DNA of 51,252 nucleotides from the NCBI RefSeq assembly GCF_016652235.1, contig NZ_JAEPKU010000016.1:1-51252 (forward strand), read 5' to 3'. Made by a program: the position numbers and the translations under genes. The notes under the pieces were generated by a model that did no database searches, was not told the DNA's origin, and worked only from the letters and a program-made list of their open reading frames with translations. Numbering within the stretch: the first letter of the stretch is position 1; every line of letters begins with the position of its first letter. Source of the stretch: Dysgonomonas sp. Marseille-P4677 (GTDB taxonomy: Bacteria > Bacteroidota > Bacteroidia > Bacteroidales > Dysgonomonadaceae). This document shows positions 10,401-34,063 of this stretch, piece after piece.

Positions 10401-10401
10401 T

Positions 10402-13923: not shown

Positions 13924-13924
13924 A

Positions 13925-14891: not shown

Positions 14892-14924
14892 GTTACAGTT
14901 TATTATTACTTCTTTTTCTGTAAC
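14892..14924 (+). terminator. Possible terminator after GT2
   Basis: GTTACAG (14892-14898) pairs with CTGTAAC (14918-14924) across a 19-nt loop. T-rich sequence follows. The large loop makes this only a moderate candidate. Confidence 0.4.
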
Positions 14925-14972
14925 TTTTGTCACTTTTTAGTTAAAATCATTAATGGAAACTACATAAAAGAT

Positions 14973-15563: not shown

Positions 15564-15570
15564 ATAAAGA

Positions 15571-16494
15571 TTGGTTACTTCCATACAGATAAAAGAATAC
15601 GCTTATAGCCTTGGGTTCGATGCTTGTGGTGTTTGTGAGGCGGAGGAAGTTGATTTGGAGAATCAGCGAGGGTATAAAGACTGGATTAGTAGTTCATTTC
15701 ATGCCAATATGGAATATATGAACCGTAATGCAGAGAAACGACTCAACCCTACCGTCTTAGTTGAAGGGGCGCGTTCTATTATTTGTGTAGCTTTAAACTA
15801 TTATCCGGAAGTAAAACAGCCTGAAGATCATCCGCAGTTTGCTTATTATGCTTATGGTAAAGATTATCATGATGTTGTAAAAGCAAAATTGCAGATGTTG
15901 TATGATTATATCAAATCGTTGAATCCCGAGTTGGAGGGTCGTTGTTTTGTGGATACTGCACCTGTTCTGGAACGCTATTGGGCTGCGAAAGCAGGTATAG
16001 GGTTTATCGGAAAAAATTCATTACTGATTATCCCGAAGAAAGGTTCTTATTTCTTTCTTGGAGAACTAATACTTAATTTGGAATTGGATTATGATATTCC
16101 TCTTTCAAATTCATGTGGAAATTGTACTCGTTGTATTGACGCTTGTCCGACCAGTGCAATAGTAACACCTAAGGTGATAAATGCAAAGAAGTGTATCTCT
16201 TATCAGACAATAGAAAACAAGGGTGAAATAGATGAAGATATTATACCCAATCTGAATAATAGATTTTATGGTTGTGATATTTGTCAACAGGTTTGTCCTT
16301 ATAACAGATATGCACGTTCACTTAGTGCAGAAGAGTTTAAGCCATCTGATGCATTCCTGGGATTATCTTTCGATCGGTTAAATAGTCTTAGTGTAGAAGA
16401 GTATCAAAGTATATTTAAAGGATCAGCTGTGAAAAGAGCTAAATATACGGGGCTTAAAAGGAATCTGGAGGCTTTAAGGGCGAATAGGAAATAA
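15571..16494 (+). CDS. queG: Epoxyqueuosine reductase QueG
   Basis: This 307-aa cobalamin-dependent iron-sulfur enzyme reduces epoxyqueuosine to queuosine in tRNA, the last step of queuosine synthesis. Two 4Fe-4S sites are visible: C182, C185, C188 and C192 in CGNCTRCIDACPTSAI, and C208, C235, C238 and C242 in CDICQQVCPYN. The catalytic Asp is D128 in FVDTAPVLER. The length is somewhat short because the C-terminal HEAT-like extension of some QueG proteins is absent. The only in-frame start that keeps the N-terminal domain is the TTG at 15571, 7 nt after the previous stop, so a rare start codon is probable. Confidence 0.95.
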   Translation: MVTSIQIKEYAYSLGFDACGVCEAEEVDLENQRGYKDWISSSFHANMEYMNRNAEKRLNPTVLVEGARSIICVALNYYPEVKQPEDHPQFAYYAYGKDYHDVVKAKLQMLYDYIKSLNPELEGRCFVDTAPVLERYWAAKAGIGFIGKNSLLIIPKKGSYFFLGELILNLELDYDIPLSNSCGNCTRCIDACPTSAIVTPKVINAKKCISYQTIENKGEIDEDIIPNLNNRFYGCDICQQVCPYNRYARSLSAEEFKPSDAFLGLSFDRLNSLSVEEYQSIFKGSAVKRAKYTGLKRNLEALRANRK

Positions 16495-16525
16495 TATTTT
16501 ATATGTAAGCAACGTTGTATATAAT

Positions 16526-16996
16526 ATGAAAAGCTTAAAATATATATTTATAGTGGGTATACTCGTATTTGGAACTTTATCTTGTAGTAAAGATGAAGAG
16601 AGAAATATAATTCCGGGCTACCCTAATTTTAAAATAGATTTGAATAATCTTGATGCTGATTTACGGGGGGCTGGAAGTATTAAGGTATTTACTAAACCTA
16701 GATTAGTGAATGAGTCGGTTGGTTATTCAGGGTTACTTGTTGTTAGTAATATCATTCAGGAAAATGGAGTTGTGAGTCTTTCTGCATTTGATCTGTGTTG
16801 TCCAAATGAGAAAATGAGAGATATTGTAGTTGTGCCATCTAGTTCTGATGGTACAGCGACGTGTACTAAATGTAAAAGTATTTTTGATTTATATTCCGGC
16901 TTGGGAAATGTAAAATCGGGTCCGTCAAAGACAGGATTACAGCGATATACAGTCCAATCGGAAGGAAATGGGACAGTTTTTTATATTATACGATAA
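16526..16996 (+). CDS. Rieske-like lipoprotein with cysteines replacing cluster histidines
   Basis: This 156-aa protein has a lipoprotein signal ending TLSC (C20). The C-terminal half has a Rieske-like layout: FDLCCPNE (C91, C92), CTKCKSIFDLYSG (C113, C116) and a final SGPSKTGLQRYTV segment resembling the SGPA-LxxY end of Rieske domains. True Rieske proteins use CxH and CxxH. Here both His positions are Cys or missing, so a standard 2Fe-2S Rieske cluster is not expected; a four-Cys zinc or iron site is possible. I recall similar CPKCGSxFD lipoproteins in Bacteroidales. It is the last gene before the tRNA cluster. Confidence 0.8.
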   Translation: MKSLKYIFIVGILVFGTLSCSKDEERNIIPGYPNFKIDLNNLDADLRGAGSIKVFTKPRLVNESVGYSGLLVVSNIIQENGVVSLSAFDLCCPNEKMRDIVVVPSSSDGTATCTKCKSIFDLYSGLGNVKSGPSKTGLQRYTVQSEGNGTVFYIIR

Positions 16997-17014
16997 TTTT
17001 ACTCGGTTAAACCC

Positions 17015-17045
17015 TTGCATAAAGCAAAAACATTTTTTACATTTG
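17015..17045 (+). promoter_or_regulatory. Promoter of the tRNA-Gly/tRNA-Leu unit
   Basis: TTG at 17015-17017 and TACATTTG at 17038-17045 are 20 nt apart. The bases just downstream (GCACTCGC) are identical to those after the tRNA-Ser -7 box. Confidence 0.65.
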
Positions 17046-17107
17046 CACTCGCTAAACGAGAAAGAGACTGAGGAGTCGGTCTGGAAAGATTCTCAAAGCA
17101 TCAATTT

Positions 17108-17180
<73 letters not shown>

Positions 17181-17188
17181 CTAAGGAT

Positions 17189-17272
17189 GCTCGGATGGTG
17201 GAATGGTAGACACGCAAGACTTAAAATCTTGTGACCATTACGGTTGTGCGGGTTCAAGTCCCGCTCCGAGTA
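17189..17272 (+). tRNA. tRNA-Leu (UAA)
   Basis: This is an 84-nt class II tRNA. Acceptor GCTCGGA (17189-17195) pairs with TCCGAGT (17265-17271), with a G-U at the first pair, and the discriminator is A at 17272. Anticodon stem CAAGA/TCTTG encloses loop CTTAAAA, with UAA at 17222-17224. The variable arm and the GGTTCAAGTCC T-arm are intact. It lies 8 nt after tRNA-Gly. Its 3' end is duplicated at 31551-31563. Confidence 0.97.
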
Positions 17273-17273
17273 C
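17261..17273 (+). repeat. Attachment-site copy inside the tRNA-Leu 3' end (attL)
   Basis: CCGCTCCGAGTAC covers the T-arm 3' strand, the acceptor 3' strand and the discriminator of tRNA-Leu. The same 13 bases occur at 31551-31563. tRNA 3' ends are classic targets of tyrosine recombinases, so this is the proposed left junction of the island. Confidence 0.65.
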
Positions 17274-17275
17274 AG

Positions 17276-17316
17276 AAAAAGCTTATAATCGATTGATTAT
17301 AAGCTTTTTTGTTTTT
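17276..17316 (+). terminator. Intrinsic terminator after tRNA-Leu
   Basis: AAAAAGCTTATAATC (17276-17290) and GATTATAAGCTTTTT (17295-17309) form a perfect 15-bp stem with a GATT loop, followed by TG and TTTTTT. Confidence 0.9.
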
Positions 17317-17429
17317 TAAGGAGTGACTTAAGGGATAAGTAAAAGAATTTCTTTTTCAATAATAGTTTTTTTGAGTTTAGTGTTTAAATCTCTAACAATC
17401 AAATTTTTAAATCAAAAAAACGCTCTGTT

Positions 17430-17978
17430 ATGCCAAATAGTTGTGAGGTTACAGATATTTTCTATTTATGTGATGAGTTTTCCTCAGATTTTCAAGTTTA
17501 TTATTCCAAACATGCTCTGCGTGAAGATAACAGTAAAAAGTATCGCAATAAATCTAAGTGTTTATCGGATAGTGAAGTAATGACTATCTTGATTTCCTTT
17601 CATTTAAGTGGAATGAGAAATCTGAAGGTTTATTATTTGTTTTATGTTTACACACACATGAACAGTGAGTTTCCTCAATTAGTTTCTTATAACCGCTTTG
17701 TAGGACTTCAACAGCGGCTTCTTCTGGTTTAGAAGCTAAGAAACAACATGAAAAGAGAATTGCCTCTTAAAGACACGATAATGCTTCGTAAAAGAGCTAT
17801 TATTGAGCCGGTGAATGATAAGTTGAAAAACATTTGTCAGATTGAACATACAAGACATCGTTCGTTTGCAAACTTCTTGACCGATCTGATTACTGGATTA
17901 TTGCCATATAGTTTCTTTCCTAAAAAGTCTTCAATTAGAGTAGATATAATAGAAGATAGCCAATTGACTATCTTCTGA
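17430..17978 (+). pseudogene. IS982-family transposase remnant (internal deletion)
   Basis: Two fragments of one transposase are present. Codons from 17430 to 17732 encode the N-terminal part, including LSDSEVMTILISFHLSGMRN and SEFPQLVSYNRFVGLQQRLL. From about 17733 to 17978, in another frame, comes the C-terminal part with MLRKRAIIEPVNDKLKNICQ and HRSFANFL. Both resemble IS982 transposases. The middle of the protein, which carries the first two catalytic Asp residues, is missing, so no active enzyme can be made. TATCGAACTCACGTTA at 17992-18007 resembles an IS982 end as I recall it; no matching left end was found. Confidence 0.8.
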
Positions 17979-18046
17979 AATAATTTTCTTATATCGAACT
18001 CACGTTAAATGAATATAAAATGTTGTTGGTAATATTTTTGTGAATC

Positions 18047-19330
18047 TTATTTATCAAAACCTTTAAAATTGCCGTTTAAATCAAATATCAGTTCTATTTC
18101 TGGATATCCTGATAATTCTATTTTGTATCCCGAATATTTCTTTTCAAATTCTTCTATCAATCGTGTTGAGTAATTTGCTTTCACATATGACAATATTTTT
18201 GAAGGGATTATTGCGTCGGGGACGCTCTTGCTTGGCAAAACCTCTACACTTAACAGTTCGCCACCTGCCGAGAAATCAACCTCTGTACCATCCGAAAGTT
18301 TTACTTCAAATTTATTATCGTCTTTTTCTACATACAAGATGGTAACCGATTGAAGAAAATAGGTATTCAAAATTGTTCTAGCTGCCGTAGGCAAAACATC
18401 AACAGAGACTCTATCGTTATCATGGTTGCTGTTATTATCGCCTCTGTCTTCACTCCACAAATTTCCCTGGAGATCGAATACCAAATCTACATTGCCCGAT
18501 AAGTCAATTTCATATGTACTCACTTTCTTTTCCATACTTTCTACCTTGCGTGAAGCGTGATTTGCTTGTATGTAGTCATTTATACTCTGAGGAAGTAATA
18601 CTAAAACAGATGTGGGTATAGTAGCTTTATTGGCATCTATATCTTTCCATTCCCCTTGCAGAGTGAAGTCTATTTCAAGGCTATTAGCCAGTGTCACATC
18701 GTAGCTGTCGTTGTCTTTTTTTACCATGGCCACGTCCACCCCAGTAAAGTGAGTGATCAGAAAGGTTTGAGATATAGTTGGCAAATTGCTTACAGGTACA
18801 TCCACATCATGGTCATCGTGATCTGTACCCACATAATTACCATTTACGTCGAAGTGCAACTCTATATCGGTATTACCCGTGAGGTCGACTTCATATCCTG
18901 CAGTTGTTTTTTTTATTTCGGTTATACTCTTTGCCGGATAGTATTGAACCACATATGAAACAACAGAACGGGGTACGAGCGCCAGAACATTATCAGGTAA
19001 GGCACCATCATTGTTAGCTTCTATGTCATACCATACTCCATTCTGATCAAATTTAATTTCATAACCCGAAGCATACGTCGTTGTATAAGTACTTTTAGCG
19101 GTAGCTGATTTTGCCAAAGAAACATCATATCCGCTAATTGCTTTTAAAGCCTTCGTTACTTCATATCCGTTAAAGTGATCTGTTATAAAAGTTTGTGAAA
19201 TCGCAGGCAACTGGTTGTAAGCGATTGTCTCCGTTCCATCTCCGTTGTCGTTATTGTCGCTACTGCATGCAACAAAATTTAGAGAACCTGCCAAAAATAA
19301 TACTGTAAAAAATAATTGTACTGTTTTCAT
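18047..19330 (-). CDS. Lipoprotein with three tandem PepSY-like double domains
   Basis: This 427-aa protein has a lipoprotein signal with C22 in FVACSSD, followed by an acidic linker. The remainder is three tandem repeats at about residues 41-170, 183-295 and 313-427. Each begins with an LP-x(2-3)-T/R-hydrophobic helix (LPAISQTFITDHF, LPTISQTFLITHF, LPTAARTILNTYF) and ends with a strand plus turn (LHFDVNGNYVGTD, LVFDLQGNLWSED, LIFDLNGNFKGFD). Each repeat appears to hold two PepSY-like (DUF2874/PF11396-type) units, giving six in total. These domains are periplasmic or surface proteins of unclear function, with suggested inhibitor or ligand-binding roles. It is transcribed away from the sugar-utilization genes. 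Confidence 0.85.
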   Translation of the reverse strand: MKTVQLFFTVLFLAGSLNFVACSSDNNDNGDGTETIAYNQLPAISQTFITDHFNGYEVTKALKAISGYDVSLAKSATAKSTYTTTYASGYEIKFDQNGVWYDIEANNDGALPDNVLALVPRSVVSYVVQYYPAKSITEIKKTTAGYEVDLTGNTDIELHFDVNGNYVGTDHDDHDVDVPVSNLPTISQTFLITHFTGVDVAMVKKDNDSYDVTLANSLEIDFTLQGEWKDIDANKATIPTSVLVLLPQSINDYIQANHASRKVESMEKKVSTYEIDLSGNVDLVFDLQGNLWSEDRGDNNSNHDNDRVSVDVLPTAARTILNTYFLQSVTILYVEKDDNKFEVKLSDGTEVDFSAGGELLSVEVLPSKSVPDAIIPSKILSYVKANYSTRLIEEFEKKYSGYKIELSGYPEIELIFDLNGNFKGFDK

Positions 19331-19355
19331 TTGCTATTAAGGATTGATTATAATA

Positions 19356-19363
19356 CAAAGGTA
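19356..19363 (-). promoter_or_regulatory. -7 box of the PepSY-like lipoprotein gene
   Basis: The minus strand reads TACCTTTG, fitting TAnnTTTG, 26 nt upstream of the ATG at 19330. No TTG at 19-nt spacing was found. Confidence 0.5.
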
Positions 19364-19686
19364 TATACCTAAATCTGAAAAGATTTGGGAATAAAATCAG
19401 AATTCAATAAAAAAAATAGAAAAATCTTGTTGGTGAGTGATTTAGACAAAGGAAAAAAACTGTTTCTTTTTCCTTTTGAGTGTACAAACTGAAAAACAGT
19501 TATCTATTTGAGTTTATTAATGTCTAATATAAATAGACAAGAGATATTATACTACCTGTCAATAGCTTATTTTCAGATATTGTTTTGAGCTACAAAACAG
19601 TTTACTGGCATTTTCAAAAATGGAGTAAAAAACGGAGAATGGTTGAATTCATGGTTACACATTTCTTTAAAATTCCACTTATTACT

Positions 19687-19718
19687 TTGGGCTGGTTAGC
19701 AAAACAATATTATATTTG
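19687..19718 (+). promoter_or_regulatory. Promoter of the ECF sigma gene
   Basis: TTG at 19687-19689 and TATATTTG at 19711-19718 are spaced by 21 nt, slightly longer than ideal. The -7 box is 51 nt before the ATG at 19770. Confidence 0.5.
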
Positions 19719-19769
19719 CCGTGAGAGTGAGCAATACTCAACGTTAATATAGAAATCCAGAATGAACCC

Positions 19770-20348
19770 ATGATAAATATTTCAGATGAACATAAGAAAA
19801 AACAGACAGTCGGTTCATATGGGGATTTTACGTCTATGTATGAGATGTTTGCACCTCAGTTATATACCTTTATATTTAACTTTACACGATCAAAATCATT
19901 GACTCAAGATATTGTTCAGGAAACCTTTCTAAAAGTATGGATCAAATACAAAGGAATCGATGAGTCATTATCATTCAGATCCTATTTGTTTACAATAGCG
20001 AAAAACCATATGCTAAATGAATTCCGTAAACAATTGAATAACCCTGCCTTTCTCGATTATGTACAATTAAGCATGGAAGAAGAGTCAACGGAAACTATGG
20101 TTGAACAGAAAATAGACTTCGATGAATTTAACCGCCTGCTTCAGCGTTCGAAAATGAAATTATCCTCCCGGCAGGCACAGATATTTGAATTGAATAAAGA
20201 GCAAGGTTATTCAGTCCGGGAAATTGCGCAAATGCTTAATATTTCCGAACAAGTCGTTAGAAATCAATTATCTTTGGCCTTGCAAATTTTACGTCCTGAA
20301 ATGAAAAAATACTCATTGCTCTTCATACTCCTCTTTATCCAACTCTGA
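19770..20348 (+). CDS. ECF RNA polymerase sigma factor (Bacteroides expansion type)
   Basis: This 192-aa protein has sigma region 2 at about residues 22-90, with the core-binding DIVQETFLKVWIKY and SFRSYLFTIAKNHMLNEFRK. Region 4 follows at about 128-175, with the helix-turn-helix YSVREIAQMLNISEQVVRNQLS. It ends in a hydrophobic stretch (YSLLFILLFIQL). In such systems ligand binding by a SusC-type receptor is relayed through a FecR anti-sigma to free the sigma factor, which then activates the receptor operon. Here FecR and an STN-containing SusC follow on the same strand, so the relay is complete. An unusual 135-bp gap with two palindromes separates it from fecR. Confidence 0.95.
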   Translation: MINISDEHKKKQTVGSYGDFTSMYEMFAPQLYTFIFNFTRSKSLTQDIVQETFLKVWIKYKGIDESLSFRSYLFTIAKNHMLNEFRKQLNNPAFLDYVQLSMEEESTETMVEQKIDFDEFNRLLQRSKMKLSSRQAQIFELNKEQGYSVREIAQMLNISEQVVRNQLSLALQILRPEMKKYSLLFILLFIQL

Positions 20349-20369
20349 ACTCTTTTTAATTAAATGTTT

Positions 20370-20395
20370 TATAACATATCTTATGGCATGTTATA
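20370..20395. promoter_or_regulatory. Inverted repeat between sigma and anti-sigma genes (first)
   Basis: TATAACAT (20370-20377) and ATGTTATA (20388-20395) form a perfect 8-bp inverted repeat with a 10-nt spacer. It could be a weak hairpin or a dimer-binding site; it lacks a T-tract. Confidence 0.4.
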
Positions 20396-20406
20396 ATTAT
20401 AGCCAG

Positions 20407-20429
20407 ACATGTGTATAATATATACATGT
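20407..20429. promoter_or_regulatory. Near-perfect palindrome between sigma and anti-sigma genes (second)
   Basis: ACATGTGTATA and TATATACATGT flank a single central A, matching at 10 of 11 pairs. It lies 55 nt before the fecR start. It fits an operator for a dimeric regulator or an RNA hairpin. Confidence 0.4.
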
Positions 20430-20483
20430 TGTATATGTCTTTTATAAATATTTATAAAAAAAGGTGAGCCCATTTAATTCGCA

Positions 20484-21479
20484 ATGACAGAATCGAGAAT
20501 TTATTATTTACTATCCCGCTATGCTGACAAGGAGATAAGCAAGGAAGAACTGCTGGAATTGAAAGAACTGGTGAATAGTTCGGACAATTCATTATTAGGC
20601 GGAATGTTTGAACACCTTTGGTGCAATTTTGATTATAAAGACGGAGAGGCTGATAAAAAGGAATTGGATAAAATATATTCCGGCATACAGAAAAAGCTAA
20701 AACGGAAACAAATAAACATGTTTTTATATCGTACATTAAAATATGCAGGAATAATACTTATACCGCTTTTGTTCACTCTTTCCCTTTATTTTTATCAGGA
20801 CCGGAAAAAAATGTATCAGTTAGGTCAGAAAGAAATAACTATAGATGTTGCAAAAGGACAAAAGGCCGGCATAACCCTTCCAGATGGTTCCAGAGTTTAT
20901 CTAAACTCAGAATCCTTATTACGCTATAAGCAGAACTTTGACTATAAGGATAGAAAAGTAGATCTTATGGGAGAAGCTTTTTTTGAAGTGAAAAGAGATA
21001 CTACAAAGCCGTTTATTGTTTATACAAAACATTTAAATATAGAAGTTTTAGGAACTACCTTTAATCTCTATGCCTATGAACAGGAAAACACAATAGAAAT
21101 GGCTCTTGTTTCAGGATATGTAAAGATCGAAACGCATACTGTGCCATCTGAGGTGATGTATGTCAAATCAAAAGAGAAAATATTATTTGATAAGATATCG
21201 GGAAAGCTACACTTAGAAAAAACAAATACACTCTTTGAAACAGCATGGATGCGCAATGAATTGGTTTTCCGTTCCGAACAGATAGAATCTGTTCTTACCA
21301 AAGTAGAACGAAAGTATGGTGTAAAAATACACGTTGATGGAAAATGGATTGAGAATGATCGCTTTACAGGATATTTCTATAGCGATCATGTTGGAGATGT
21401 CATGGAAATACTCAGAATGCACTATAAATTTGAATATAGAATGAAGAATGATGAAATATGGATCATTACAGCTAATTAA
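20484..21479 (+). CDS. FecR family anti-sigma factor
   Basis: This 331-aa inner-membrane protein has a cytoplasmic helical N-terminus (residues 1-80) that would hold the sigma factor and a single membrane helix at about 85-104. A periplasmic FecR domain spans about 120-215 (GITLPDGSRVYLNSES, GEAFFEVKRDTTKPFIVYT). A DUF4974-like C-terminal domain (about 255-328) would contact the STN domain of the partner SusC. Its position between the sigma gene and the STN-SusC gene identifies it as the transducer of this locus. Confidence 0.94.
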   Translation: MTESRIYYLLSRYADKEISKEELLELKELVNSSDNSLLGGMFEHLWCNFDYKDGEADKKELDKIYSGIQKKLKRKQINMFLYRTLKYAGIILIPLLFTLSLYFYQDRKKMYQLGQKEITIDVAKGQKAGITLPDGSRVYLNSESLLRYKQNFDYKDRKVDLMGEAFFEVKRDTTKPFIVYTKHLNIEVLGTTFNLYAYEQENTIEMALVSGYVKIETHTVPSEVMYVKSKEKILFDKISGKLHLEKTNTLFETAWMRNELVFRSEQIESVLTKVERKYGVKIHVDGKWIENDRFTGYFYSDHVGDVMEILRMHYKFEYRMKNDEIWIITAN

Positions 21480-21527
21480 TTGATTATTAACCTTAAAAAA
21501 AGAAAAACATGAATTCCACATGAAAAG

Positions 21528-21554
21528 GCCGGAGAATGGATAAGATTCTCCGGC
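21528..21554 (+). promoter_or_regulatory. Strong hairpin in the SusC leader
   Basis: GCCGGAGAAT (21528-21537) and ATTCTCCGGC (21545-21554) form a perfect 10-bp GC-containing stem with a 7-nt loop, 75 nt upstream of the susC ATG. No T-tract follows, so it is more likely an RNA stabiliser, processing site or regulator target than a terminator. Confidence 0.55.
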
Positions 21555-21628
21555 AATATAAGTTAACCTTTTTCATAAATGCGATCCCCACCGCATAAAT
21601 TATTTGTATTAACCTTTAAAAATTGAGT

Positions 21629-24600
21629 ATGTTAAATTATCGAAAAGGTCAATTATGCTACATAAACAAAGGTAGCAAAAAAAAGCAACTGTCTTTTCTT
21701 ATTTGTGCTATATTTTTATTCATTAGTCCAATTGGAATATTAGCACAGCAGTCAAAGAATATCACAGTTTCAGTCAAAGAAGTTACATTGCAGCAGTTCT
21801 TTGAGGAAATAGAGAAACAGAGTTCTTACAAGTTCTCCTATAGGGATATTGTATTGGAGAATAAAAAAGATGTTACAATCAATGTTTCAAGTCAACCGGT
21901 AGAGTTTATTCTGAATAAAATACTTCCTTCCCGCGGCTTAGCATACAAAGTAATGGGAAATTCAGTCATTGTTACTGCTGTAGTAGGACAACAGAAGGAA
22001 GAACCAAAAACGATTAGCGGAATCATTGTTGATAAAGCAGGAGAACCTCTTATTGGAGCTAATGTAATAGTAAAGGGTACAACGAATGGAACGATAACCG
22101 ATCCGGAGGGTAATTTTTCATTAAAAACATCACCCGATGCAATTCTGGAAATATCTTATGTTGGATTTAACAAACAGGAGGTGCATGTAGGTTCTCAACA
22201 CTTCTTATCTATCTATATGGAGGAAGATTCAAAAGCACTTGATGAGGTGATTGTTATTGGATACGGAACAACAAAACGGCAGGATTTTACAGGGTCTGTT
22301 TCTTCAATTAAACTGGAAGACTCTCTGATAGCTTTGGCTTCAAACTTAAATGCACTGGAATCCATAAAAGGCAATGTCGCTGGCCTTGATATCGGTGCCA
22401 CAAACTCTGCCGGAGGACAACCTTCAATGCAGATGCGGGGTCAGAAGTCTATTTCCGGATCCAATGATCCGTTAATAGTCGTAGATGGAGTTATTTATAT
22501 GGGAAGCCTCAATGATATTAATCCCAATGATATTGCCTCTTATGATATATTAAAAGATGCGACATCGGCGGCCGCTTATGGTTCGCGTTCAGCAAATGGT
22601 GTTATCATTATTACAACTAAAAAAGGACGTTCAGGTAAGCCTATCATCAACTTTAATGCTTCCGGTAGTTTGCAAACCTGGCAAAACCGCCCGAAGCTGA
22701 TGAAAGGTGAGCAATGGCTGGAATCTGTTTCAGCTCGGAACAATAGTTCGGATTTATCTTGGCTGACCCAGCAGGAAGCAGCCAATAGAGAAGCAGGCCG
22801 GGAAATTAACTGGTTAGATGAATCTACCCGTACAGGTTGGGTACAGGATTATTCGGTATCTGTTTCCGGAGCAGGCGAAAAATTAAATTATTATTTGTCC
22901 ACAGCTTATGCTAATAATCAGGGCGTTGTTATTGGTGATGATTTCGACCGTATTTCTGTACTCGGAAAAGTCAATGCAGATATCACAAGTTGGTTGCAGA
23001 TAGGTGTTGATGGTGCATATACACGATCCAACTATCCGGGTACGAGAGCCAATATATACATGGCAACTGTTATGACTCCTTATGGGGTTATGTATAGAGA
23101 TGAAGAGAATAAATTATTAGAAAGATATCCTCAGACACAAGCTCTGATCAATCCTCTCTGGGGAGTGCATGACGGTACGCATGACAGGTATGATGAAAGA
23201 AATAGCTTTCGCTTGAATGCTTATGCAGTAGTAAAATTACCCTGTCTTCCCGGATTGAGCTATCGATTCAACTATTCGGGTAATCTGAACAAAAATCAGG
23301 TCGGTGAATTTTATAATGAACGATATTTTGTAAGGCAGGGTGCTTATGATGATGTTTCCCGCTATACACCGGCAGCCTATCAGTTGCTATTAAGTAACGC
23401 TAATGGAAATATTGATAACAACAGCTCCTCCAGCTGGGTAATTGATAATATTCTGAATTATAAAAACACCTTTGGTAGGCATACAATCGACTTAACAGCC
23501 GTAGCAACCCGCGACCGGAAGGATTATGGACAAGTAATTTCCAGAGGTAATGATTTCTCAGCCAATGGAAATACCGTGTTGGAAGTAAACGGCCTTCATA
23601 AAGTCGTCGTTCAGAAAATTGAACTGAATAAGTGGAGACGTTCCAATATCGGTTATCTGGGCCGGTTGTCCTATTCGTTTAAGGATCGGTATTTCTTAAC
23701 TGGATCTTTTCGCCGCGATGGTGCCTCCGTATTCGGAGTAAACCAGAAGTGGGGCAATTTTGCAGCAGCCGGAGCTGCCTGGAGAATATCGAATGAGGCA
23801 TTTATGCAAAATATAAAAGTACTGAACAATCTGAAACTAAAGCTTTCATGGGGTAAAAACGGTAATCAGGGATTGAATCCTTATGGTACGCTTTCCACCA
23901 CAAAGAATGGTTCTACAGGCGGTCTTCGATACGAATTCGGCAATAGTAGTAATATTCTGTATGGATTGGCTGCCGATGCACTTGGTAATGCAGACCTAGG
24001 ATGGGAATCTACGGAGTCATGGAATACAGGATTTGAGTCGGCCTGGTTGGGTTCTCGGATTTTCGTTGATCTAGATGTTTACTTATCACGGACAACCAAT
24101 CAGATATTTGAACGTGACATACCTGTAATAACCGGTTTTAAGAAGATTAAATCTTCCATGGGACAAGTTAATAATAAAGGTTTGGAAATAACGGTCCGTT
24201 CCGTTAATATCGATAATAGGGAATGGAACTGGATGACAAATGTCACTTACTGGATAAACCGTAATAAATTGGTACATCTATATGGTGAAGATCTGGATAA
24301 AGATGGCAAAGAAGATGATGACATCTCCAACAGCCGGTTTATAGGCAAGCCGTTAGGCGTTATTTATGGCTATGTCCAGGATGGAATTGTCCAGGAAGAT
24401 GATACGGAATACATAAAAGCGAATGGTGTAAGTGCGGGCGTTCCCAAATATAAGGATCTGGATGATGATGGTGTGATTACGTCTAAAGACCGTGATATTT
24501 TGGGATATACCAGCCCTAGTTTTAAATTGAATATGAGCAATACTGTCAGTTATAAAAACTGGAATCTTTATGTAATGGTTACAGGAACTTTTGGTGGTGG

Positions 24601-24988
24601 TGGATATTACATGAAGTCTAATACGGCTGCTTTTATGGTCAATGGCACCGGTAACTTTAATACAAATGGTATCTATATCCCATGGTGGACGCCGGAAAAC
24701 CGAAGCAACACATATCCTTCAGCAACTTTCTCCGGTGACGGAGGGCGGTTTCAGGGATTGCAGAACCGTGCATTTGTTCGCTTTCAGGATGTTACCTTGT
24801 CTTATACCTTCCCTCAACAGTGTGTAAAGAAGATGGCTATCAACAATATGAAGATATTCATGACGGTGAAGAATCTGGCAACAATCACAAACTGGAAAGG
24901 TGGAGATCCGGAAGTTGGCACACCTGTACTTGGAGATACATACCCTGTGCTGACTTCTTATTCATTAGGTATAAATCTTAGTTTTTAA
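21629..24988 (+). CDS. SusC-type TonB-dependent receptor with STN signalling domain
   Basis: This outer-membrane glycan importer of about 1119 aa starts with a signal peptide ending GILAQ. An STN domain follows at about 43-110 (VSVKEVTLQQFFEEIEKQSS to GNSVIVT), which signals to FecR. A carboxypeptidase-regulatory-like beta-sandwich lies at about 125-200 (ISGIIVDKAGEPLIGANVIV). Then come the TonB-box region (DEVIVIGYGT), the plug with LKDATSAAAYGSRSANGVII, and a long beta-barrel ending in YSLGINLSF. The ATG at 21629 is chosen over a TTG two codons upstream. SusD follows after 17 nt. Together they import the glycan processed by the downstream GH78 and six-hairpin enzymes. Confidence 0.96.
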   Translation: MLNYRKGQLCYINKGSKKKQLSFLICAIFLFISPIGILAQQSKNITVSVKEVTLQQFFEEIEKQSSYKFSYRDIVLENKKDVTINVSSQPVEFILNKILPSRGLAYKVMGNSVIVTAVVGQQKEEPKTISGIIVDKAGEPLIGANVIVKGTTNGTITDPEGNFSLKTSPDAILEISYVGFNKQEVHVGSQHFLSIYMEEDSKALDEVIVIGYGTTKRQDFTGSVSSIKLEDSLIALASNLNALESIKGNVAGLDIGATNSAGGQPSMQMRGQKSISGSNDPLIVVDGVIYMGSLNDINPNDIASYDILKDATSAAAYGSRSANGVIIITTKKGRSGKPIINFNASGSLQTWQNRPKLMKGEQWLESVSARNNSSDLSWLTQQEAANREAGREINWLDESTRTGWVQDYSVSVSGAGEKLNYYLSTAYANNQGVVIGDDFDRISVLGKVNADITSWLQIGVDGAYTRSNYPGTRANIYMATVMTPYGVMYRDEENKLLERYPQTQALINPLWGVHDGTHDRYDERNSFRLNAYAVVKLPCLPGLSYRFNYSGNLNKNQVGEFYNERYFVRQGAYDDVSRYTPAAYQLLLSNANGNIDNNSSSSWVIDNILNYKNTFGRHTIDLTAVATRDRKDYGQVISRGNDFSANGNTVLEVNGLHKVVVQKIELNKWRRSNIGYLGRLSYSFKDRYFLTGSFRRDGASVFGVNQKWGNFAAAGAAWRISNEAFMQNIKVLNNLKLKLSWGKNGNQGLNPYGTLSTTKNGSTGGLRYEFGNSSNILYGLAADALGNADLGWESTESWNTGFESAWLGSRIFVDLDVYLSRTTNQIFERDIPVITGFKKIKSSMGQVNNKGLEITVRSVNIDNREWNWMTNVTYWINRNKLVHLYGEDLDKDGKEDDDISNSRFIGKPLGVIYGYVQDGIVQEDDTEYIKANGVSAGVPKYKDLDDDGVITSKDRDILGYTSPSFKLNMSNTVSYKNWNLYVMVTGTFGGGGYYMKSNTAAFMVNGTGNFNTNGIYIPWWTPENRSNTYPSATFSGDGGRFQGLQNRAFVRFQDVTLSYTFPQQCVKKMAINNMKIFMTVKNLATITNWKGGDPEVGTPVLGDTYPVLTSYSLGINLSF

Positions 24989-25005
24989 TCTTATAATAAT
25001 AAATC

Positions 25006-26790
25006 ATGAAAAAGATAAAGAATAGTCTTCTGGCCTTGTTCTTTCTGCTGATTGCAGGTGCTTGTGACGATGCCGGCTTTTTGACAGAGAAACCCGATAC
25101 ATTCTATACAATAGACAATACATTTTCTACTTCAGAACAGGTAGACCAGGTTTTAGTAGCTTGCTACTCTCATGTGAGAGTAATGATGTGCATGATAGAA
25201 GAAGGTACTCCGTCTTTTGCATTCAGAGGTGGAAATGGTACCGATATGTTTGATGTAGCTACAATCAGAAGAGGAAACCGCTTCAATGACTATAGTATAT
25301 TGAATGCTTCTAACGATGTGTTCTATATAAATTTTTCTCATTGGTATCAACTATTGGCAAAAGCAAACTTAGCATTATATGCTGCAGAATTACCTCAAAT
25401 ATCTTGGGGATCGGCCTCCGATAAAGCTTATGCTATAGCACAAGGTCGTTTTTTTCGTGCTTTCTGTTACAGAAATCTAGGAGAATTATATGGAGGAGTT
25501 CCTATTGTAACAGAAATTACTACCAAACCTCGTTACGATTTTAAACGGACCTCACGGGTAGAAACTTATCAATTTGCAATCGATGAACTCGAAGTTATAT
25601 TAAACGATCTGCCGGAAACAACACCCATCGGAGGACGGTTAGTCCGTGGAGCAGCACAGCATAATCTTTGCCAATTGTATATAGACAAAGGTGTAGCATT
25701 GGAGGAAGAGGGCAAAGCCGGTGAAGCCCGAAGTGCCTACGAGAAGGCTGTCGAGTATGGTAATGTATTGATAGATGGCTCTTTATATAAATTGATGACA
25801 GAGCGCTTCGGTACACGTATGAATGAAAATCCCGATTATTATTATGCAAACACGGTAGCAGACCAGACACCAGATCATCTGTATTCATCCACCGGGTTTA
25901 TAATAAAAGGAAATGTTTATTGGGACCTTTTTCAGGAAGGAAATCAGAATTATCAGGAAGGCAACAAAGAAGCTATTTGGGTCGCACAAGTAGACTATGC
26001 AGCTTATAAAGCTGAAGATAAGCAATCTCTACTTCAATATTCACGTGTGTTCGGCCCCGTTTTTCGTGACCCGATGTCTGCTCATCTGGCTAATGAACTG
26101 GAGGATGTGGGAGGACGTGGCATTGTGCAAGTAATGCCTACCATGTATACCCGCGATATTATTTACAGTGGTAAGTGGGGAGACGATATGAGAAACTCTG
26201 AAGCGGTGTTGAGAAGAACCTTTTTAGGAAATAAAAAAACTTCTCCATATTATGGGAAAGTTGTACCCTGGAGTATAATCTACCGTGACGGTGAAAGCAA
26301 AGATGCTGTGGATGCAGCTAAAACTCAATGCTTCCCTATTTCATGTAAAATTTCAACCGATAAATATACAGGATTGAAAGACGGACAGAACAGGAGTAAT
26401 TTATTTCGTGACGAATATCTGATTCGATTGCCGGAAACGATTCTATTGCGTGCAGAAGCCAAAATGCGTGCAAATGATAAACCTGGTGCGGCATCTGATA
26501 TAAACTTATTACGTACCCGTGCTAATTGTGGTTATCTGGTTACTGCAGCCGACGTAAATATAGACCTGATACTCGATGAACGTGCCCGGGAACTTGTTTA
26601 TGAAGAATGCCGGTGGAACACCCTGCTTCGTATGGGAGGAACAGTTGCTTTAGAGCGCATTAAGAAATATGCGTATTGGGATGATCCTCGAAATACATTG
26701 ACTAGAAGTTTCAATCTATGGCCAATACCTCAAGTTGTGATAGATACCAACAAAGACCAAATAATGAGCCAAAACCCGGGTTGGAATTGA
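25006..26790 (+). CDS. SusD/RagB family glycan-binding lipoprotein
   Basis: This 594-aa surface lipoprotein has a signal ending IAGAC (C20). The N-terminal TPR-like SusD core is visible in AIAQGRFFRAFCYRNLGELYGG and VPIVTEITTKPRYDFKR. The RagB C-terminal signature is ETILLRAEAKMRAND, SDINLLRTRANCGY and LDERARELVYEECRWNTLLRMG. It forms the lid of the SusC channel and binds the polysaccharide. It is encoded 17 nt after susC. Confidence 0.96.
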   Translation: MKKIKNSLLALFFLLIAGACDDAGFLTEKPDTFYTIDNTFSTSEQVDQVLVACYSHVRVMMCMIEEGTPSFAFRGGNGTDMFDVATIRRGNRFNDYSILNASNDVFYINFSHWYQLLAKANLALYAAELPQISWGSASDKAYAIAQGRFFRAFCYRNLGELYGGVPIVTEITTKPRYDFKRTSRVETYQFAIDELEVILNDLPETTPIGGRLVRGAAQHNLCQLYIDKGVALEEEGKAGEARSAYEKAVEYGNVLIDGSLYKLMTERFGTRMNENPDYYYANTVADQTPDHLYSSTGFIIKGNVYWDLFQEGNQNYQEGNKEAIWVAQVDYAAYKAEDKQSLLQYSRVFGPVFRDPMSAHLANELEDVGGRGIVQVMPTMYTRDIIYSGKWGDDMRNSEAVLRRTFLGNKKTSPYYGKVVPWSIIYRDGESKDAVDAAKTQCFPISCKISTDKYTGLKDGQNRSNLFRDEYLIRLPETILLRAEAKMRANDKPGAASDINLLRTRANCGYLVTAADVNIDLILDERARELVYEECRWNTLLRMGGTVALERIKKYAYWDDPRNTLTRSFNLWPIPQVVIDTNKDQIMSQNPGWN

Positions 26791-27030
26791 TAACATTGGA
26801 TGAAATTCATTGCGTTGAATTTATAGACTAATCATATTGCCGGAAGCCAACTTTTACCAGAAAGTTAGAACCTGTTCAGACCAATGGGAGAAGATATACA
26901 GAAGTGTTCTTTTGTATCTTCCGGCTCGATTAGCCTGTCAACATATCGTTTGTATTTATAGTCTTTAGTTGATAAATTCCTTTTTATAAGTTATTCATAC
27001 CATTTACGTAATGTTATAAAAAATAATTTC

Positions 27031-29328
27031 ATGTATAAAACAAAAAAAACAGTAACCCGAATTATTCTGATATGTTCTTTTGTTTTTTTTACTATTTTGC
27101 TACAAGCTGCAAAAAATAAGCCATTCGGATTGATGACCGATCTGATAGAGCATACCGACCGGATATGGCAAAATGGATATGCTAGCAATATATTTGTTTG
27201 GCAGACAGATGGCGCAATAGAAGCCCTTCAATATGCACAAATACGCTCTACTCATCCCTCTCTTAGCTGGATTGTACCAGGAGAGACAAAGGGTACCAGG
27301 CAGATCGCCTACCATATTATATTAGCAGATACTTACTCCGAGGCTGTAGCCGGAAGGGGGACTGTATGGGATAGCGGACTTATCGATAGCGATCAATCTA
27401 CCGCTGTGCCTTATTGGGGAACAGAGCTTAAGAAAGATAAGTGTTACTTCTGGCGGGTAAAGTGCGTGACAAATACGGAAGGGGAGAGTGAATGGTCAGA
27501 TGTTAAAGCTTTTCGTACAGCATCCGCCCTATCAGACTATGCAGCTACATCCTATCCTCAGGTCAAATCTATGGAATATCCGATATCTGTGACAGCAGTT
27601 ACAACAGGTACCTATGTTGCGGATTTTGGGAAGGACGCTTTTTCCCAGTTATTATTGACACTAACCTCTCTATCAGATACAGATACAGTACTTGTACATT
27701 TGGGAGAATGCATGTCGGGAAGTCGTGTGGACCGTAATCCCGGAGGAACAATCCGCTACCACTCTTATCCTTTGGTTCTACTAAAAGGAACATATACTTA
27801 CCGGATCAAGATAGCCAAAGATAAACAGAATACAAGAAGCGCCGCAATATTAATGCCTGGATATGTGGGCGAGGTGCTCCCTTTCAGGTATTGCGAAATC
27901 GAAGGTTATGCATCTCCGTTACTTTCGGGTGCGATATCCCGGGAACATGTTCATTATCCGTTTGATACAACTGCGTCCTCCTTCCAATGCAGCAATGATA
28001 CATTGAATCAGATTTGGAATATGTGCAAATATTCGATTCAGGCTACTTCCTTTACCGGCATGTATGTAGACGGTGACCGCGAACGTATTCCTTATGAAGC
28101 GGACGCTCTAATCAATCAACTCTGCCATTATAGTGTAGAGAGGGAATATTCGATGGCACGCCGTACACACGAATACTTACTTCAATATCCGACCTGGCCT
28201 ACAGAATGGATATTACAAGCTGTTCTGATCGCATGGAATGACTATATGTATACAGGTGATAGTCGTTCACTCAAAGTTAATTATAACATACTCAAAGCAC
28301 GTACATTAATGCAACTACGGGAAAAGAACGGAATGATAAGTACGACTCAAAACTTACAGACTCCTGAATTCTTATTCTCTATTAACCGGCCAGGTGAAAA
28401 AATAAGAGATATAGTAGACTGGCCTCATACAGGAATTCTCGGCCTGAATAAACATGAGGGAGGGGAAGCTGATGGATTTGTTTTCACTGATTATAATACT
28501 GTAACAAATGCTTATCACTACGAAGCGTTAAAACTTATGGGTAAGATTGCCAAAGCACTGGATTTAAAGTATGATGCTTCTTTTTTCGAAGAAGAGGCAA
28601 ATATGTTCCTTATTAGGTTTAATAAGATGTTCTTTAATCCCAAATTAGGCTATTATGTAGATGGTGATACAACAAACCATGCATCTCTTCATGCAAATAT
28701 GTTCCCTGTTGCATTTGGAATGGTTCCGTCAGGCAGAATGAATAAGGTAATGGAATTTATACAAACTCGCGGGATGGCCTGTAGTGTGTATGGTTCTCAA
28801 TTTTTGATGGATGCAATATACGAGTCCGGTAATGCAGATTATGGCCTGCATATGTTAACAAAAACAGACGACAGAGGATGGTATAATATGATCCGTGTAG
28901 GCTCCACTATTTCGCTAGAAGCGTGGGACAATAAGTATAAACCGAATCAGGACTGGAATCATGCTTGGGGGGCAGCTCCTGCTAATATCATTCCCCGAAA
29001 AGTAATTGGAGTAGAACCGTTGATTCCCGGTTATGGACTGGTACGTATAAAACCGCAGTTAGGGTCATTGAAATGGGCAAAGTCAACCATCCCTACGATA
29101 AAAGGAAAGATACAGCTTGCAATAGAAAACAAGACGGAAAAGTTTTCCATGAAAGTAGTACTTCCTGCCAATATGGAGGCTGAAGTTTATTTGCCGCTAC
29201 CTTTCGGAAAGTACGAAATCTATAATAACGGAACATTTGTAAAGGCAACGAAAGTAAAGGGAGAACCATTCTTGTATGTGGGTATGATAACCTCCGGTAC
29301 TCATGAAATAACAATGTATATCAAGTAA
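27031..29328 (+). CDS. Alpha-L-rhamnosidase, GH78
   Basis: This 765-aa enzyme removes terminal alpha-L-rhamnose. A signal peptide (ILICSFVFFTILLQA) sends it to the periplasm or surface. A fibronectin-like N-terminal region (HPSLSWIVPGETKGTRQIAY) and beta-sandwich domains precede the (alpha/alpha)6 catalytic barrel. Near residue 350 the active-site segment MYVDGDRERIPYEAD carries the acidic residues of GH78, and DWNHAWGAAPANIIPRKVIG near residue 640 is the conserved late motif. It lies 240 bp after susD on the same strand. It gives the best clue that this locus targets a rhamnose-containing glycan such as rhamnogalacturonan, an arabinogalactan or a plant rhamnoside. Confidence 0.93.
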   Translation: MYKTKKTVTRIILICSFVFFTILLQAAKNKPFGLMTDLIEHTDRIWQNGYASNIFVWQTDGAIEALQYAQIRSTHPSLSWIVPGETKGTRQIAYHIILADTYSEAVAGRGTVWDSGLIDSDQSTAVPYWGTELKKDKCYFWRVKCVTNTEGESEWSDVKAFRTASALSDYAATSYPQVKSMEYPISVTAVTTGTYVADFGKDAFSQLLLTLTSLSDTDTVLVHLGECMSGSRVDRNPGGTIRYHSYPLVLLKGTYTYRIKIAKDKQNTRSAAILMPGYVGEVLPFRYCEIEGYASPLLSGAISREHVHYPFDTTASSFQCSNDTLNQIWNMCKYSIQATSFTGMYVDGDRERIPYEADALINQLCHYSVEREYSMARRTHEYLLQYPTWPTEWILQAVLIAWNDYMYTGDSRSLKVNYNILKARTLMQLREKNGMISTTQNLQTPEFLFSINRPGEKIRDIVDWPHTGILGLNKHEGGEADGFVFTDYNTVTNAYHYEALKLMGKIAKALDLKYDASFFEEEANMFLIRFNKMFFNPKLGYYVDGDTTNHASLHANMFPVAFGMVPSGRMNKVMEFIQTRGMACSVYGSQFLMDAIYESGNADYGLHMLTKTDDRGWYNMIRVGSTISLEAWDNKYKPNQDWNHAWGAAPANIIPRKVIGVEPLIPGYGLVRIKPQLGSLKWAKSTIPTIKGKIQLAIENKTEKFSMKVVLPANMEAEVYLPLPFGKYEIYNNGTFVKATKVKGEPFLYVGMITSGTHEITMYIK

Positions 29329-29358
29329 ACCCTAATAATGTAAAATTATAAATAATAG

Positions 29359-31467
29359 ATGTCTATCAATATATTTTCTTATATTATATTACTAATATCC
29401 TTTTTGGGATATAAAGATAATGAGTCTAAAATTAATAGAAAATCCCTGGTCCATAGAAACAATCCTACAGTGGTAAATGTTGATACACTATCTTCCTTTA
29501 CTATTGGGAACGGAGGCTTTGCCTTTACAGTAGATGCTACCGGATTGCAAACATTTACTGATTTGTACAAAAATGGTATTCCATTGGGAACACAGTCCGA
29601 CTGGGGGTGGCATAGTAAGCCTAATCTTAGAGAATTCACCTTTCAGGATATATTAAAACCGTTTGACTTTGGACGCGGTAAAGTAGAATATTATGCTATA
29701 CAGAAAGATGAGTCTACAGATTCGAAAGAAGCAGCAAATTGGTTCAGGGCAAATCCCCACCGTATACACTTGGGAAATATAGGATTAGGACTGGATGAGG
29801 GTGTAAAAGCTTCTGAATTAAAGAATATTTCGCAGGAGTTAGACATGTGGGATGGAATAATAAAAAGTAGTTTTACTATTAGAGATCAACAGTTTGATGT
29901 AAAAACAGTTTGCCATCCGGAGAAAGATGCAATAAGTGTGTCTATTCATTCAAACGCCAAGCCATCTGTAAAATTCTGCTTTGCTTATCCTTCAGATAAG
30001 AATATATCCGATGGTTGTGAATGGGATAAGAACGATTTGCATCATACTTCTATTATTCATTCGGATAAATATCGGGTTATTTTGAAACGTCAGATCGACG
30101 AAACCATCTATTATGTGACAATAAAATGGGACGATGAGGCAGACTTTTCCGAAAAGGAGAAGAATTATTTTACATTATCATCCAAAAGTAATGGGCTCCA
30201 TTTGGTCTGCTCATTTTCACAAAAAAGAGATGCCGGTGATTCGCTTTCATATGACGATGTACAGCAATTATCGGCTCGATACTGGAACTCCTTCTGGAAT
30301 AAATCGGCGGTTGTAGATTTTTCGTTATGCAAAGATCCCCGGGCTAAAGAATTGGAACGCCGGGTGGTACTATCACAGTACCTGCTCGCTACTCAATGTG
30401 CAGGTGGAAGCCCTCCGCAGGAAACAGGTTTGACTTATAATTCCTGGTATGGTAAATTTCATTTAGAGATGGTGTGGTGGCATCAATCGCATTTTGCTCT
30501 TTGGCAACATCCTGAATGGTTGAGCAACACATTGAATTGGTATATAAATGCATTACCTATAGCCCGTGAGATTGCGGTTCGACAAGGCTTCGACGGAGTA
30601 AGATGGATGAAAATGACCGATCCTTCGGGTATGGATACGCCATCTTATGTTGGCCCTTTTTTGATATGGCAGCAACCTCACCCTATCTATTTATCAGAGT
30701 TATTATACAGAACTGAACCTTCACAGAAAATAATTGATAAATATAAAGATATGATCCAGCAAACAGCAGAATTTATGTATTCGTTTGCCAGCTATGATGT
30801 AAAGAATGATCGTTACATATTGAAAGGTTATATACCTGCTCAGGAGAGGTTTGAACCCCAAAATACAGTAAACTCTCCGTTCGAAATGTGTTATTGGATC
30901 GTGGGATTGGAAATAGCACAAAAATGGCGTGAACGCTCAGGGCTTGACCGTTGTATGGAATGGGATGATCTGATTAAAAAGTTATCTCCTCTTTATTCAG
31001 AAGATGGTATTTATCCTGCGGCCGAATCGGTGGGTAAAGATTATGCAAATGAACGTTATACCACCGACCATATGAGTGTATTAGGATCTTTAGGTATAAT
31101 TCCTCAATGCCATCTGGTAGATAAAAAGATCATGAGTAATACTTTGGATTGGGTCTTAAAGAATTGGAATTGGGATCAAACCTGGGGATGGGATTATCCA
31201 ATGACTGCTATGACTGCTGTGCGTTTAGGGGAGGCTCAAAAGGCCATTGATATATTGTTGATGGATAGGCAAACTAACACATATTTAAATAATGGTCATA
31301 ATTTTCAAAATAAAGATTTACGTGTATATTTACCGGGTAATGGAGGATTACTTACAGCTATTGCCTTAATGTGTGCAGGATGGGATGATAATGATATTCC
31401 TAATCCGGGATTTCCCAAAGACGGGAATTGGGATGTAAGGTGGGAAGGGCTGTTACCGTTACCTTGA
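29359..31467 (+). CDS. Putative six-hairpin glycosidase, family uncertain
   Basis: This 702-aa protein has a short hydrophobic leader (IFSYIILLISFLGY), a beta-rich N-terminal region with FTIGNGGFAFTVDATGLQTF, and an all-helical C-terminal domain rich in Trp. QETGLTYNSWYGKFHLEMVW near residue 365 resembles the (alpha/alpha)6 barrels of GH65/GH95-type enzymes. FDGVRWMKMTDPSG and WDQTWGWDYPMTAMTAVRLG are other acidic-aromatic segments that could hold the catalytic residues. I cannot assign a GH family. It begins 30 nt after GH78 and presumably acts on the same substrate. It is the last gene before the proposed right island junction. Confidence 0.75.
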   Translation: MSINIFSYIILLISFLGYKDNESKINRKSLVHRNNPTVVNVDTLSSFTIGNGGFAFTVDATGLQTFTDLYKNGIPLGTQSDWGWHSKPNLREFTFQDILKPFDFGRGKVEYYAIQKDESTDSKEAANWFRANPHRIHLGNIGLGLDEGVKASELKNISQELDMWDGIIKSSFTIRDQQFDVKTVCHPEKDAISVSIHSNAKPSVKFCFAYPSDKNISDGCEWDKNDLHHTSIIHSDKYRVILKRQIDETIYYVTIKWDDEADFSEKEKNYFTLSSKSNGLHLVCSFSQKRDAGDSLSYDDVQQLSARYWNSFWNKSAVVDFSLCKDPRAKELERRVVLSQYLLATQCAGGSPPQETGLTYNSWYGKFHLEMVWWHQSHFALWQHPEWLSNTLNWYINALPIAREIAVRQGFDGVRWMKMTDPSGMDTPSYVGPFLIWQQPHPIYLSELLYRTEPSQKIIDKYKDMIQQTAEFMYSFASYDVKNDRYILKGYIPAQERFEPQNTVNSPFEMCYWIVGLEIAQKWRERSGLDRCMEWDDLIKKLSPLYSEDGIYPAAESVGKDYANERYTTDHMSVLGSLGIIPQCHLVDKKIMSNTLDWVLKNWNWDQTWGWDYPMTAMTAVRLGEAQKAIDILLMDRQTNTYLNNGHNFQNKDLRVYLPGNGGLLTAIALMCAGWDDNDIPNPGFPKDGNWDVRWEGLLPLP

Positions 31468-31550
31468 AACTCATAGTCTGTCTTATCCTAAAATAGGTGG
31501 TTCTTTGTCATATTTGCTGAAAATATTCTTGTTGATTAATATATACTCAA

Positions 31551-31563
31551 CCGCTCCGAGTAC
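31551..31563 (+). repeat. Second copy of the tRNA-Leu 3' end (attR)
   Basis: CCGCTCCGAGTAC is identical to 17261-17273. It is followed 3 nt later by a terminator-like palindrome, just as the tRNA copy is. It would be the displaced 3' end of the original tRNA gene at the right edge of the island. Confidence 0.65.
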
Positions 31564-31566: not shown

Positions 31567-31604
31567 AAAAAGCGCTAATCATTTATAAATGATTAGCGCT
31601 TTTT
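31567..31604. terminator. Perfect 38-bp palindrome, bidirectional terminator
   Basis: AAAAAGCGCTAATCATTTA (31567-31585) is exactly mirrored by the next 19 bases. The A/T ends make it a terminator in both directions. It closes the rhamnoside locus. Its layout (AAAAAGC...GCTTTTT) resembles the tRNA-Leu terminator at 17276-17316. Confidence 0.85.
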
Positions 31605-33745: not shown

Positions 33746-34063
33746 TTAAAGTGCCATAATTCCGTCAATGGCAGAAGCTTGCCTATAATAAATTATAATA
33801 TCGTCAGCATCATTTACTGGAACCTTTACGGTTATGCTTGTATATTTACCATTCTTACTATCTCTGGTAGAAAAACTTGTATTTGGATCATCGAAGATTG
33901 CACATAGTCTCGCAATTATACTTTGTTCCGAAGGTACAATATATTTAAATATATAATCAGAAGGGAACATATGAGTTTGTTCAAGTTTCTCTTTAAACTT
34001 CAAATAAAAATCGTCAATATGCTGATTCCTATTATTTTCTAATATTTCTATTTTTTTATCCAT
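33746..34063 (-). CDS. DUF493 family protein (YbeD-like)
   Basis: This 105-aa cytoplasmic protein matches the small DUF493 family through FKYIVPSEQSIIARLCAIF, FSTRDSKNGKYTSITVKVPV and the ending DIIIYYRQASAIDGIMAL. The fold is a ferredoxin-like alpha/beta domain similar to ACT domains. The function is unknown, with an allosteric or regulatory role proposed for the E. coli homologue. There is no gap between its stop codon and that of the convergent FISUMP gene. Confidence 0.88.
   Translation of the reverse strand: MDKKIEILENNRNQHIDDFYLKFKEKLEQTHMFPSDYIFKYIVPSEQSIIARLCAIFDDPNTSFSTRDSKNGKYTSITVKVPVNDADDIIIYYRQASAIDGIMAL

Follow-up and report, generated by a model that had tools for sequence, protein, structure and literature searches.

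A 14.3 kb interval at the 3' end of a tRNA-Leu(UAA) gene of Dysgonomonas (positions 17274-31563 of the window, the whole stretch of 51,252 nucleotides that was analyzed) is probably a single genomic island that has decayed to its cargo; we put the probability of this reading at roughly 0.6. We infer that one integration made the interval, with the genes for glycan uptake as cargo, and that the integrase and mobilization genes were lost later. The reading of the interval as a tRNA-anchored genomic island is well supported, because integrase-bearing intervals bounded by the same 13 bp sequence are found at tRNA-Leu in related genomes and in a genome of another family (G303).

The tail of tRNA-Leu recurs at the far end of the interval

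The tRNA-Leu(UAA) gene (17189-17273, forward strand; ARAGORN) is the putative integration target. It lies behind a tRNA-Gly gene (17108-17181; ARAGORN) and a gene at 15571-16494 with conserved counterparts in 13/17 of the genus relatives for which this region was fetched. Its 13 bp tail, CCGCTCCGAGTAC (17261-17273), recurs exactly and on the same strand at 31551-31563, 83 bp after the last stop codon, confirming both the positions and the orientation given in a preliminary description of this DNA. These are the only two copies in the 4.73 Mb genome on either strand. The 13-mer is thus rare, as had been claimed, although the expectation of 0.0008 copies per strand that was given for it is too high: we calculated approximately 0.0001 for each strand of the window. 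For the whole genome, a first-order Markov estimate, scaled up from the window, gives 0.017.

The two copies share exactly 13 bp. Of the 20 bases to their left, 2 match. The distal copy therefore does not extend farther into the tRNA, and the earlier concern that it might be a remnant of a local duplication of tRNA-Leu was not borne out. The last 13 bases of the window's other two tRNA genes are not repeated within the window.

Each copy is followed on the forward strand by a perfect hairpin that ends in T's, as had been noticed before. The proximal hairpin is at 17276-17309 (arms 17276-17290 and 17295-17309) and the distal hairpin at 31567-31604 (arms 31567-31585 and 31586-31604). Degenerate short repeats (AGGGATA-like) follow the proximal hairpin at 17317-17338 (forward strand); compared by eye with G032, G303, and G095, they appear to stand where elements of the B type (below) have arm repeats.

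Genes in the interval

Beside the tRNA is an IS982 transposase remnant in two reading frames (17430-17978, forward strand). Its pieces match the 243-position IS982 model NF033520 at positions 1-52 (17430-17732) and 188-240 (17748-17978; also PF13612) only, so the middle of the transposase is missing and the decayed gene reported previously is confirmed. A 427 aa PepSY-like protein is encoded on the reverse strand (18047-19330; PF11396, E = 2e-52). The other genes are on the forward strand and encode an ECF sigma factor (19770-20348; PF04542, PF08281), a FecR anti-sigma factor (20484-21479; PF04773, PF16344), a SusC transporter with an STN domain (21623-24988; TIGR04056, E = 6e-243; PF07660), a SusD glycan-binding protein (25006-26790; PF07980, PF14322), a GH78-type alpha-L-rhamnosidase (27031-29328; PF17389, E = 2e-44, and PDB rhamnosidases), and a 702 aa glycosidase-like protein (29359-31467). 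The domain matches agree with all of the sigma, FecR, SusC, SusD, and GH78-type identities proposed earlier. The interval also holds what defines a polysaccharide utilization locus, a SusC/SusD pair together with glycan-active enzymes (TIGR04056, PF07980, PF17389).

Judging from the protein families, uptake by the cargo is probably induced by its substrate. The STN domain of the SusC transporter is predicted to signal to FecR and the ECF sigma factor; SusD would bind the glycan, and the GH78-type enzyme and the second glycosidase would cut it.

The 702 aa protein had been called a six-hairpin enzyme. A glycosidase match is present (PF14498), although it is weak (E = 5e-4; 20.6 bits, with a cut-off of 27.7). 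The protein had no PDB match at E 0.01, and the best E in a two-sequence profile search was 0.29. Homologues are present in 27/101 family genomes, counting its own. Within the genus it was matched in 2/25 genomes, and it is closer to proteins of another genus, g2 (58-59%), than to that of G006 (54%). The same genome has a second copy that is 53% identical (G000:C257:50090-52156).

No rhamnose-catabolism genes were recognized in a domain search of the eight island proteins scanned. The phrase "complete rhamnoside utilization locus" in the preliminary description is too strong, because the specificity rests on one domain match: one protein is of GH78 type by domain, and the second enzyme has no assigned family. 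Nine tyrosine recombinases from related islands, used as tblastn queries, detected no integrase in positions 14001-51252 of the window. Among the eight island proteins scanned, none had a relaxase or primase domain. Farther along the window, a 2649 aa protein with FG-GAP repeats (34222-42171) has only partial matches in the genus.

The 13-mer bounds integrase-bearing elements in other genomes

The 13-mer is present in 76 of the 101 family genomes, with 89 copies in total, 13 of which are beyond the first. A reversed control pattern gave four scattered matches in all in the same genomes. Copies on the same strand and contig bound nine intervals of 1.1-23.2 kb in 8/101 genomes. They measure 14.3 kb in the window, 1.1 kb in G005, 11.4 kb in G029, 16.5 kb in G031, 13.1 and 13.4 kb (in tandem) in G032, 12.4 kb in G034, 8.5 kb in G035, and 23.2 kb in G049. 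Four other extra copies are on other contigs (G033, G073, G085, and G095), that of G085 in a repetitive stretch.

Seven of the nine intervals have a tyrosine recombinase gene 154-526 bp inside one of the 13-mer copies. In six of these seven, the gene is 182-526 bp inside the distal copy and reads leftwards; in G034, it is 154 bp from the tRNA and reads rightwards. In contrast to these seven, the intervals of the window and G005 have no tyrosine recombinase. Eight of nine integrases scanned match PF00589; the exception, from G034, matches PF13102 and barely reaches the cut-off of PF17293.

The arrangement extends beyond the family. The 13-mer is held by 17/295 genomes of an order-level sample. 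In G303, which belongs to another family (L182/L183, oriented 5391-23672), three copies bound two tandem elements, both with an integrase. Their integrases share 57% and 92% identity with the two of G032, and the elements come in the opposite order to those of G032. Comparison thus shows the 13-mer to be an attachment core at this tRNA-Leu, and the proposal that the pair marks a real integration site is upheld by integrase-bearing elements with the same 13-mer at the same tRNA elsewhere. A limited literature search found no published report of the tRNA-Leu site in Dysgonomonas.

The G049 island (L105/L106, oriented 2983-26194) encodes a relaxase, a primase, a VapE-like protein, FecR, a TonB receptor, a subtilase, and two integrases, along with a weakly matched ECF sigma factor. 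An extra copy of the 13-mer with one mismatch splits this interval in two, with an integrase in each part. The G034 island (L103, oriented 3447-15901) encodes type III restriction-modification and HEC-01-like defense proteins, and its distal copy is a longer piece of the tRNA than the 13-mer.

Element types and the ends of the interval

In several distal copies ACTC precedes CCGCTCCGAGTAC; others read otherwise. Together with the 13-mer, ACTC makes an imperfect inverted repeat centered on seven bases, suggesting a crossover region there.

We distinguished two types of element by what lies behind several of the 13-mer copies. The B type has a hairpin and paired short repeats like GAGGGATA (first island of G032, second of G303, and G095), and the C type has a hairpin and paired short repeats like TTTGCACAAC (second island of G032, first of G303, and G005). 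Right ends of the B type are common to G032, G303, and G095 (87-94% over 47-114 nt). Those of the C type match at 88% over 292 nt between G032 and G005, and over only 20 nt in G303. The G005 interval (L063, oriented 2962-4096) has two small ORFs, neither with a PADLOC match, and is best read as an integrase-less derivative of a C-type element. Because its right end is shared with an integrase-bearing element of G032, integrase-less relics do occur at this site. Four other loci (L060, L062, L065, and L073) have, just behind tRNA-Leu, repeats like GTGTACTAAA, as in the integrase-bearing G029 island, and no integrase in the fetched stretch; they may be stumps of lost elements.

The left end of the window's interval resembles the B type. 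Aligned over 41 nt, its hairpin shares 95% identity with the one in the B-type island of G032; over 35 nt it shares 100% identity with the hairpin of G004, where the repeats are different. The distal hairpin, by eye C-type-like, resembles the hairpin directly after tRNA-Leu in G005, G016, G019, G021, and G030. Compared together with the 13-mer, it has 79% identity to G021 over 63 nt; without the 13-mer, the best E to that type is 0.18. The likeness to the C type is therefore weak, since it has no significant match once the 13-mer is removed. Among the elements sampled, none has a right end that matches the 150 nt preceding the distal copy. As candidates for attL and attR of one element, the window has two cores, a left hairpin of the B type, and an unmatched right end. 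Because the left hairpin matches the B type of G032 and the right end matches none of those sampled, the interval may be composite. It is delimited by two attachment cores, with a right arm that was lost or is of a type outside the sample. A search for a B-type integrase in 25 genus genomes gave nothing better than 34%.

The glycan cluster was not seen at this site in the relatives fetched

The genus sample had 24 further genomes. We fetched the tRNA-Leu region from 17 of these and left out the other seven; the fetched stretches reach 0.6 to 17 kb past the tRNA. At E 1e-8 and over 40% of the length, the SusD, GH78-type, and 702 aa proteins of the window had no match downstream of tRNA-Leu in these 17 relatives, and SusC had matches of 25-29% only, in 3/17. 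The preliminary description would have been undermined if relatives always carried the locus at this place with both repeats. The cluster was seen downstream of tRNA-Leu in none of the 17 relatives fetched.

Among the best SusC candidates of the 24 genus genomes (at most 29 scored in each, so weaker relatives may be missed), only that of G003 exceeded 50% (58%), and it is elsewhere in that genome. SusD of G003 is 62% identical, with no GH78-type gene in the fetched stretch. In G377, from another family, the gene order is the same as in the window, and the identities are 60% for SusC, 69% for SusD, and 59% for the GH78-type protein, with 25% for the sigma factor and 23% for FecR.

The search for an empty site, proposed earlier as a check, gave no clean one. 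Relatives without the cluster at tRNA-Leu exist, but none has the right flank of the window directly behind tRNA-Leu. Two Dysgonomonas loci (L001 and L002) have an FMN reductase 83-84% identical to that of the window and no tRNA within the fetched flank; these are the enzyme's best matches and make Dysgonomonas the most likely genus of the window. We rejected G072 and G080, in which an FMN reductase is beside tRNA-Leu, as empty sites; the enzymes are 51-52% identical and in the opposite orientation. The DUF493 gene (33746-34063) was considered as an ancestral right neighbor. In G031 it follows the distal copy at approximately 0.1 kb, and in G021 it follows tRNA-Leu at 15.6 kb; in the window it is inverted, and it was matched in only 8/25 genus genomes. 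Base composition is uninformative, as it hardly sets the interval apart from its flanks (GC 39.1% versus 37.5 and 37.1%; GC3 34.4% versus 31.4 and 30.0%).

G091 (L154) and G092 (L155) form an occupied and empty pair at tRNA-Leu, with flanks that are 84-93% identical. The 6.7 kb cassette in G091 has genes for GH43, DUF4450, and a homologue of the 702 aa protein, and only one 13-mer, so cargo can reach this tRNA without leaving a pair. The homologue (56.5%, 4.6 kb from tRNA-Leu) was considered as cargo shared with the window and rejected. With homologues in 27/101 genomes, one neighbor near tRNA-Leu by chance is not unlikely (approximately 0.2, a rough estimate from 26 genomes with ~20 kb of 3 Mb each). 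SusC/SusD-like genes are also near tRNA-Leu in G001, G010, and G021, with no second exact 13-mer in the fetched stretch.

Origin of the interval

In the reading that we prefer, a tyrosine recombinase element would have crossed over within the 13 bp core of the tRNA tail. The incoming element would have left its version of the tail, with its terminator hairpin, next to tRNA-Leu, pushing the old tail and its hairpin to the far end of the interval, and the integrase and mobilization genes would have been lost afterwards.

Several findings argue for an island with the cluster as its cargo. The 13-mer pair is unique in the genome, with a negligible probability of chance, and the distal core closely follows the last gene. 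SusC and SusD are closer to those of G377, in another family, than to those of G003, and the 702 aa protein, found in few genomes of the genus, is closer to genus g2 than to G006. At the same tRNA, G049 has an element with an integrase, a relaxase, FecR, and a TonB receptor. An island is also favored by the match of the left hairpin to G032 and G004 and by the finding that none of the fetched relatives shows the cluster at the site. Against a single island are the unmatched right end and a distal hairpin that is significant only together with the 13-mer, the lack of a clean empty site, the small compositional contrast, the lack of a close B-type integrase in the genus, and the cassette of G091, which sits at the tRNA with one 13-mer.

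A composite locus is a possible but clearly less probable origin. The two 13-mers would be scars of different integrations and the left hairpin a stump of a B-type element, and the cluster would have come separately, by homologous recombination, an IS-mediated change, or another element. The mismatch of the two ends is as expected for such a history, as are the IS982 remnant between the left end and the cluster, the stacking of elements at the site in G032 and G303, and the glycosidase cassette that distinguishes G091 from G092. However, the distal core is only 83 bp behind the last gene of the cluster, and the genome holds just two copies of the 13-mer. The earlier proposal that the genes arrived as one unit that has since lost its integrase stands only in part: the integration site is real, but a single unit is only probable, with the right end unmatched while the left hairpin matches the B type of G032.

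It is very improbable that this is an ordinary chromosomal locus with a 13-mer pair due to chance or to a local tRNA duplication fragment: only 13 bp are in common, the composition is not unusual, SusC genes are many in these genomes, and SusC/SusD-like genes occur near the tRNA without a second exact 13-mer (G001, G010, and G021), but approximately 0.0001 copies are expected per strand, integrase-bearing elements elsewhere end exactly at the 13-mer, and the distal copy has no tRNA sequence on its left.

Beyond the probable decayed island itself, we raise a speculative and rather doubtful idea, that the tRNA-Leu(UAA) tail is a dock for cassettes in this family and at least one other, and that passengers without an integrase could be moved by any integrase compatible with the core. 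One 13 bp core would serve elements that differ in arm repeats and have distantly related integrases; each would bring its own tail and terminator, and they could stack in either order (G032 versus G303). The glycan cluster of the window and the 1.1 kb unit of G005 would be passengers.

Comparison with known systems

The window ties a regulated glycan uptake cluster to a tRNA-Leu site that is used repeatedly, also in tandem, in two families. The G005 miniature, the G032 and G303 stacks, and the G091/G092 pair offer material for testing how cargo, both glycan and defense genes, enters and becomes fixed at one site.

NBU1 and MTnPi4 are described as mobilizable elements of Bacteroidales that integrate at the 3' end of tRNA-Leu (PMC5704250). 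The window interval is like them in its target, the 3' end of tRNA-Leu in Bacteroidales. Its relatives' elements encode tyrosine recombinases, and the G049 element also a relaxase, as in the elements described there; unlike those elements, the window has neither an integrase nor a relaxase that we could find. The G049 island shares with the window the tRNA and the core (its first distal copy has one mismatch), FecR, a TonB receptor, and, by a weak match, an ECF sigma factor. It differs in having VapE-like, primase, relaxase, integrase, and subtilase genes and no SusD or GH78 among the proteins scanned.

Cis-mobilizable elements (CIMEs), according to the same source, keep attL and attR, have lost the genes for integration and transfer, and occur in tandem with other elements (PMC5704250). 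The window is similar in that it has two cores at the 3' end of a tRNA gene, with no integration or transfer gene found between them, at a site where related genomes have integrase-bearing elements. It is unlike a CIME as described there in that its two ends fit no single element type and that a B-type helper was not found in the 25 genus genomes searched. Polysaccharide utilization loci have been reported on gut mobile elements, 47 of them in one account (PMC6907783). Like these, the window has a SusC/SusD pair and glycosidases between attachment cores; unlike these, no mobility gene is left in its interval. The best reading of the interval is that of a probable cargo-only relic, similar to a CIME, at a tRNA-Leu site of the sort used by NBU1, and as such it adds another example to the known kinds: tRNA islands, CIMEs, and polysaccharide utilization loci on mobile elements.
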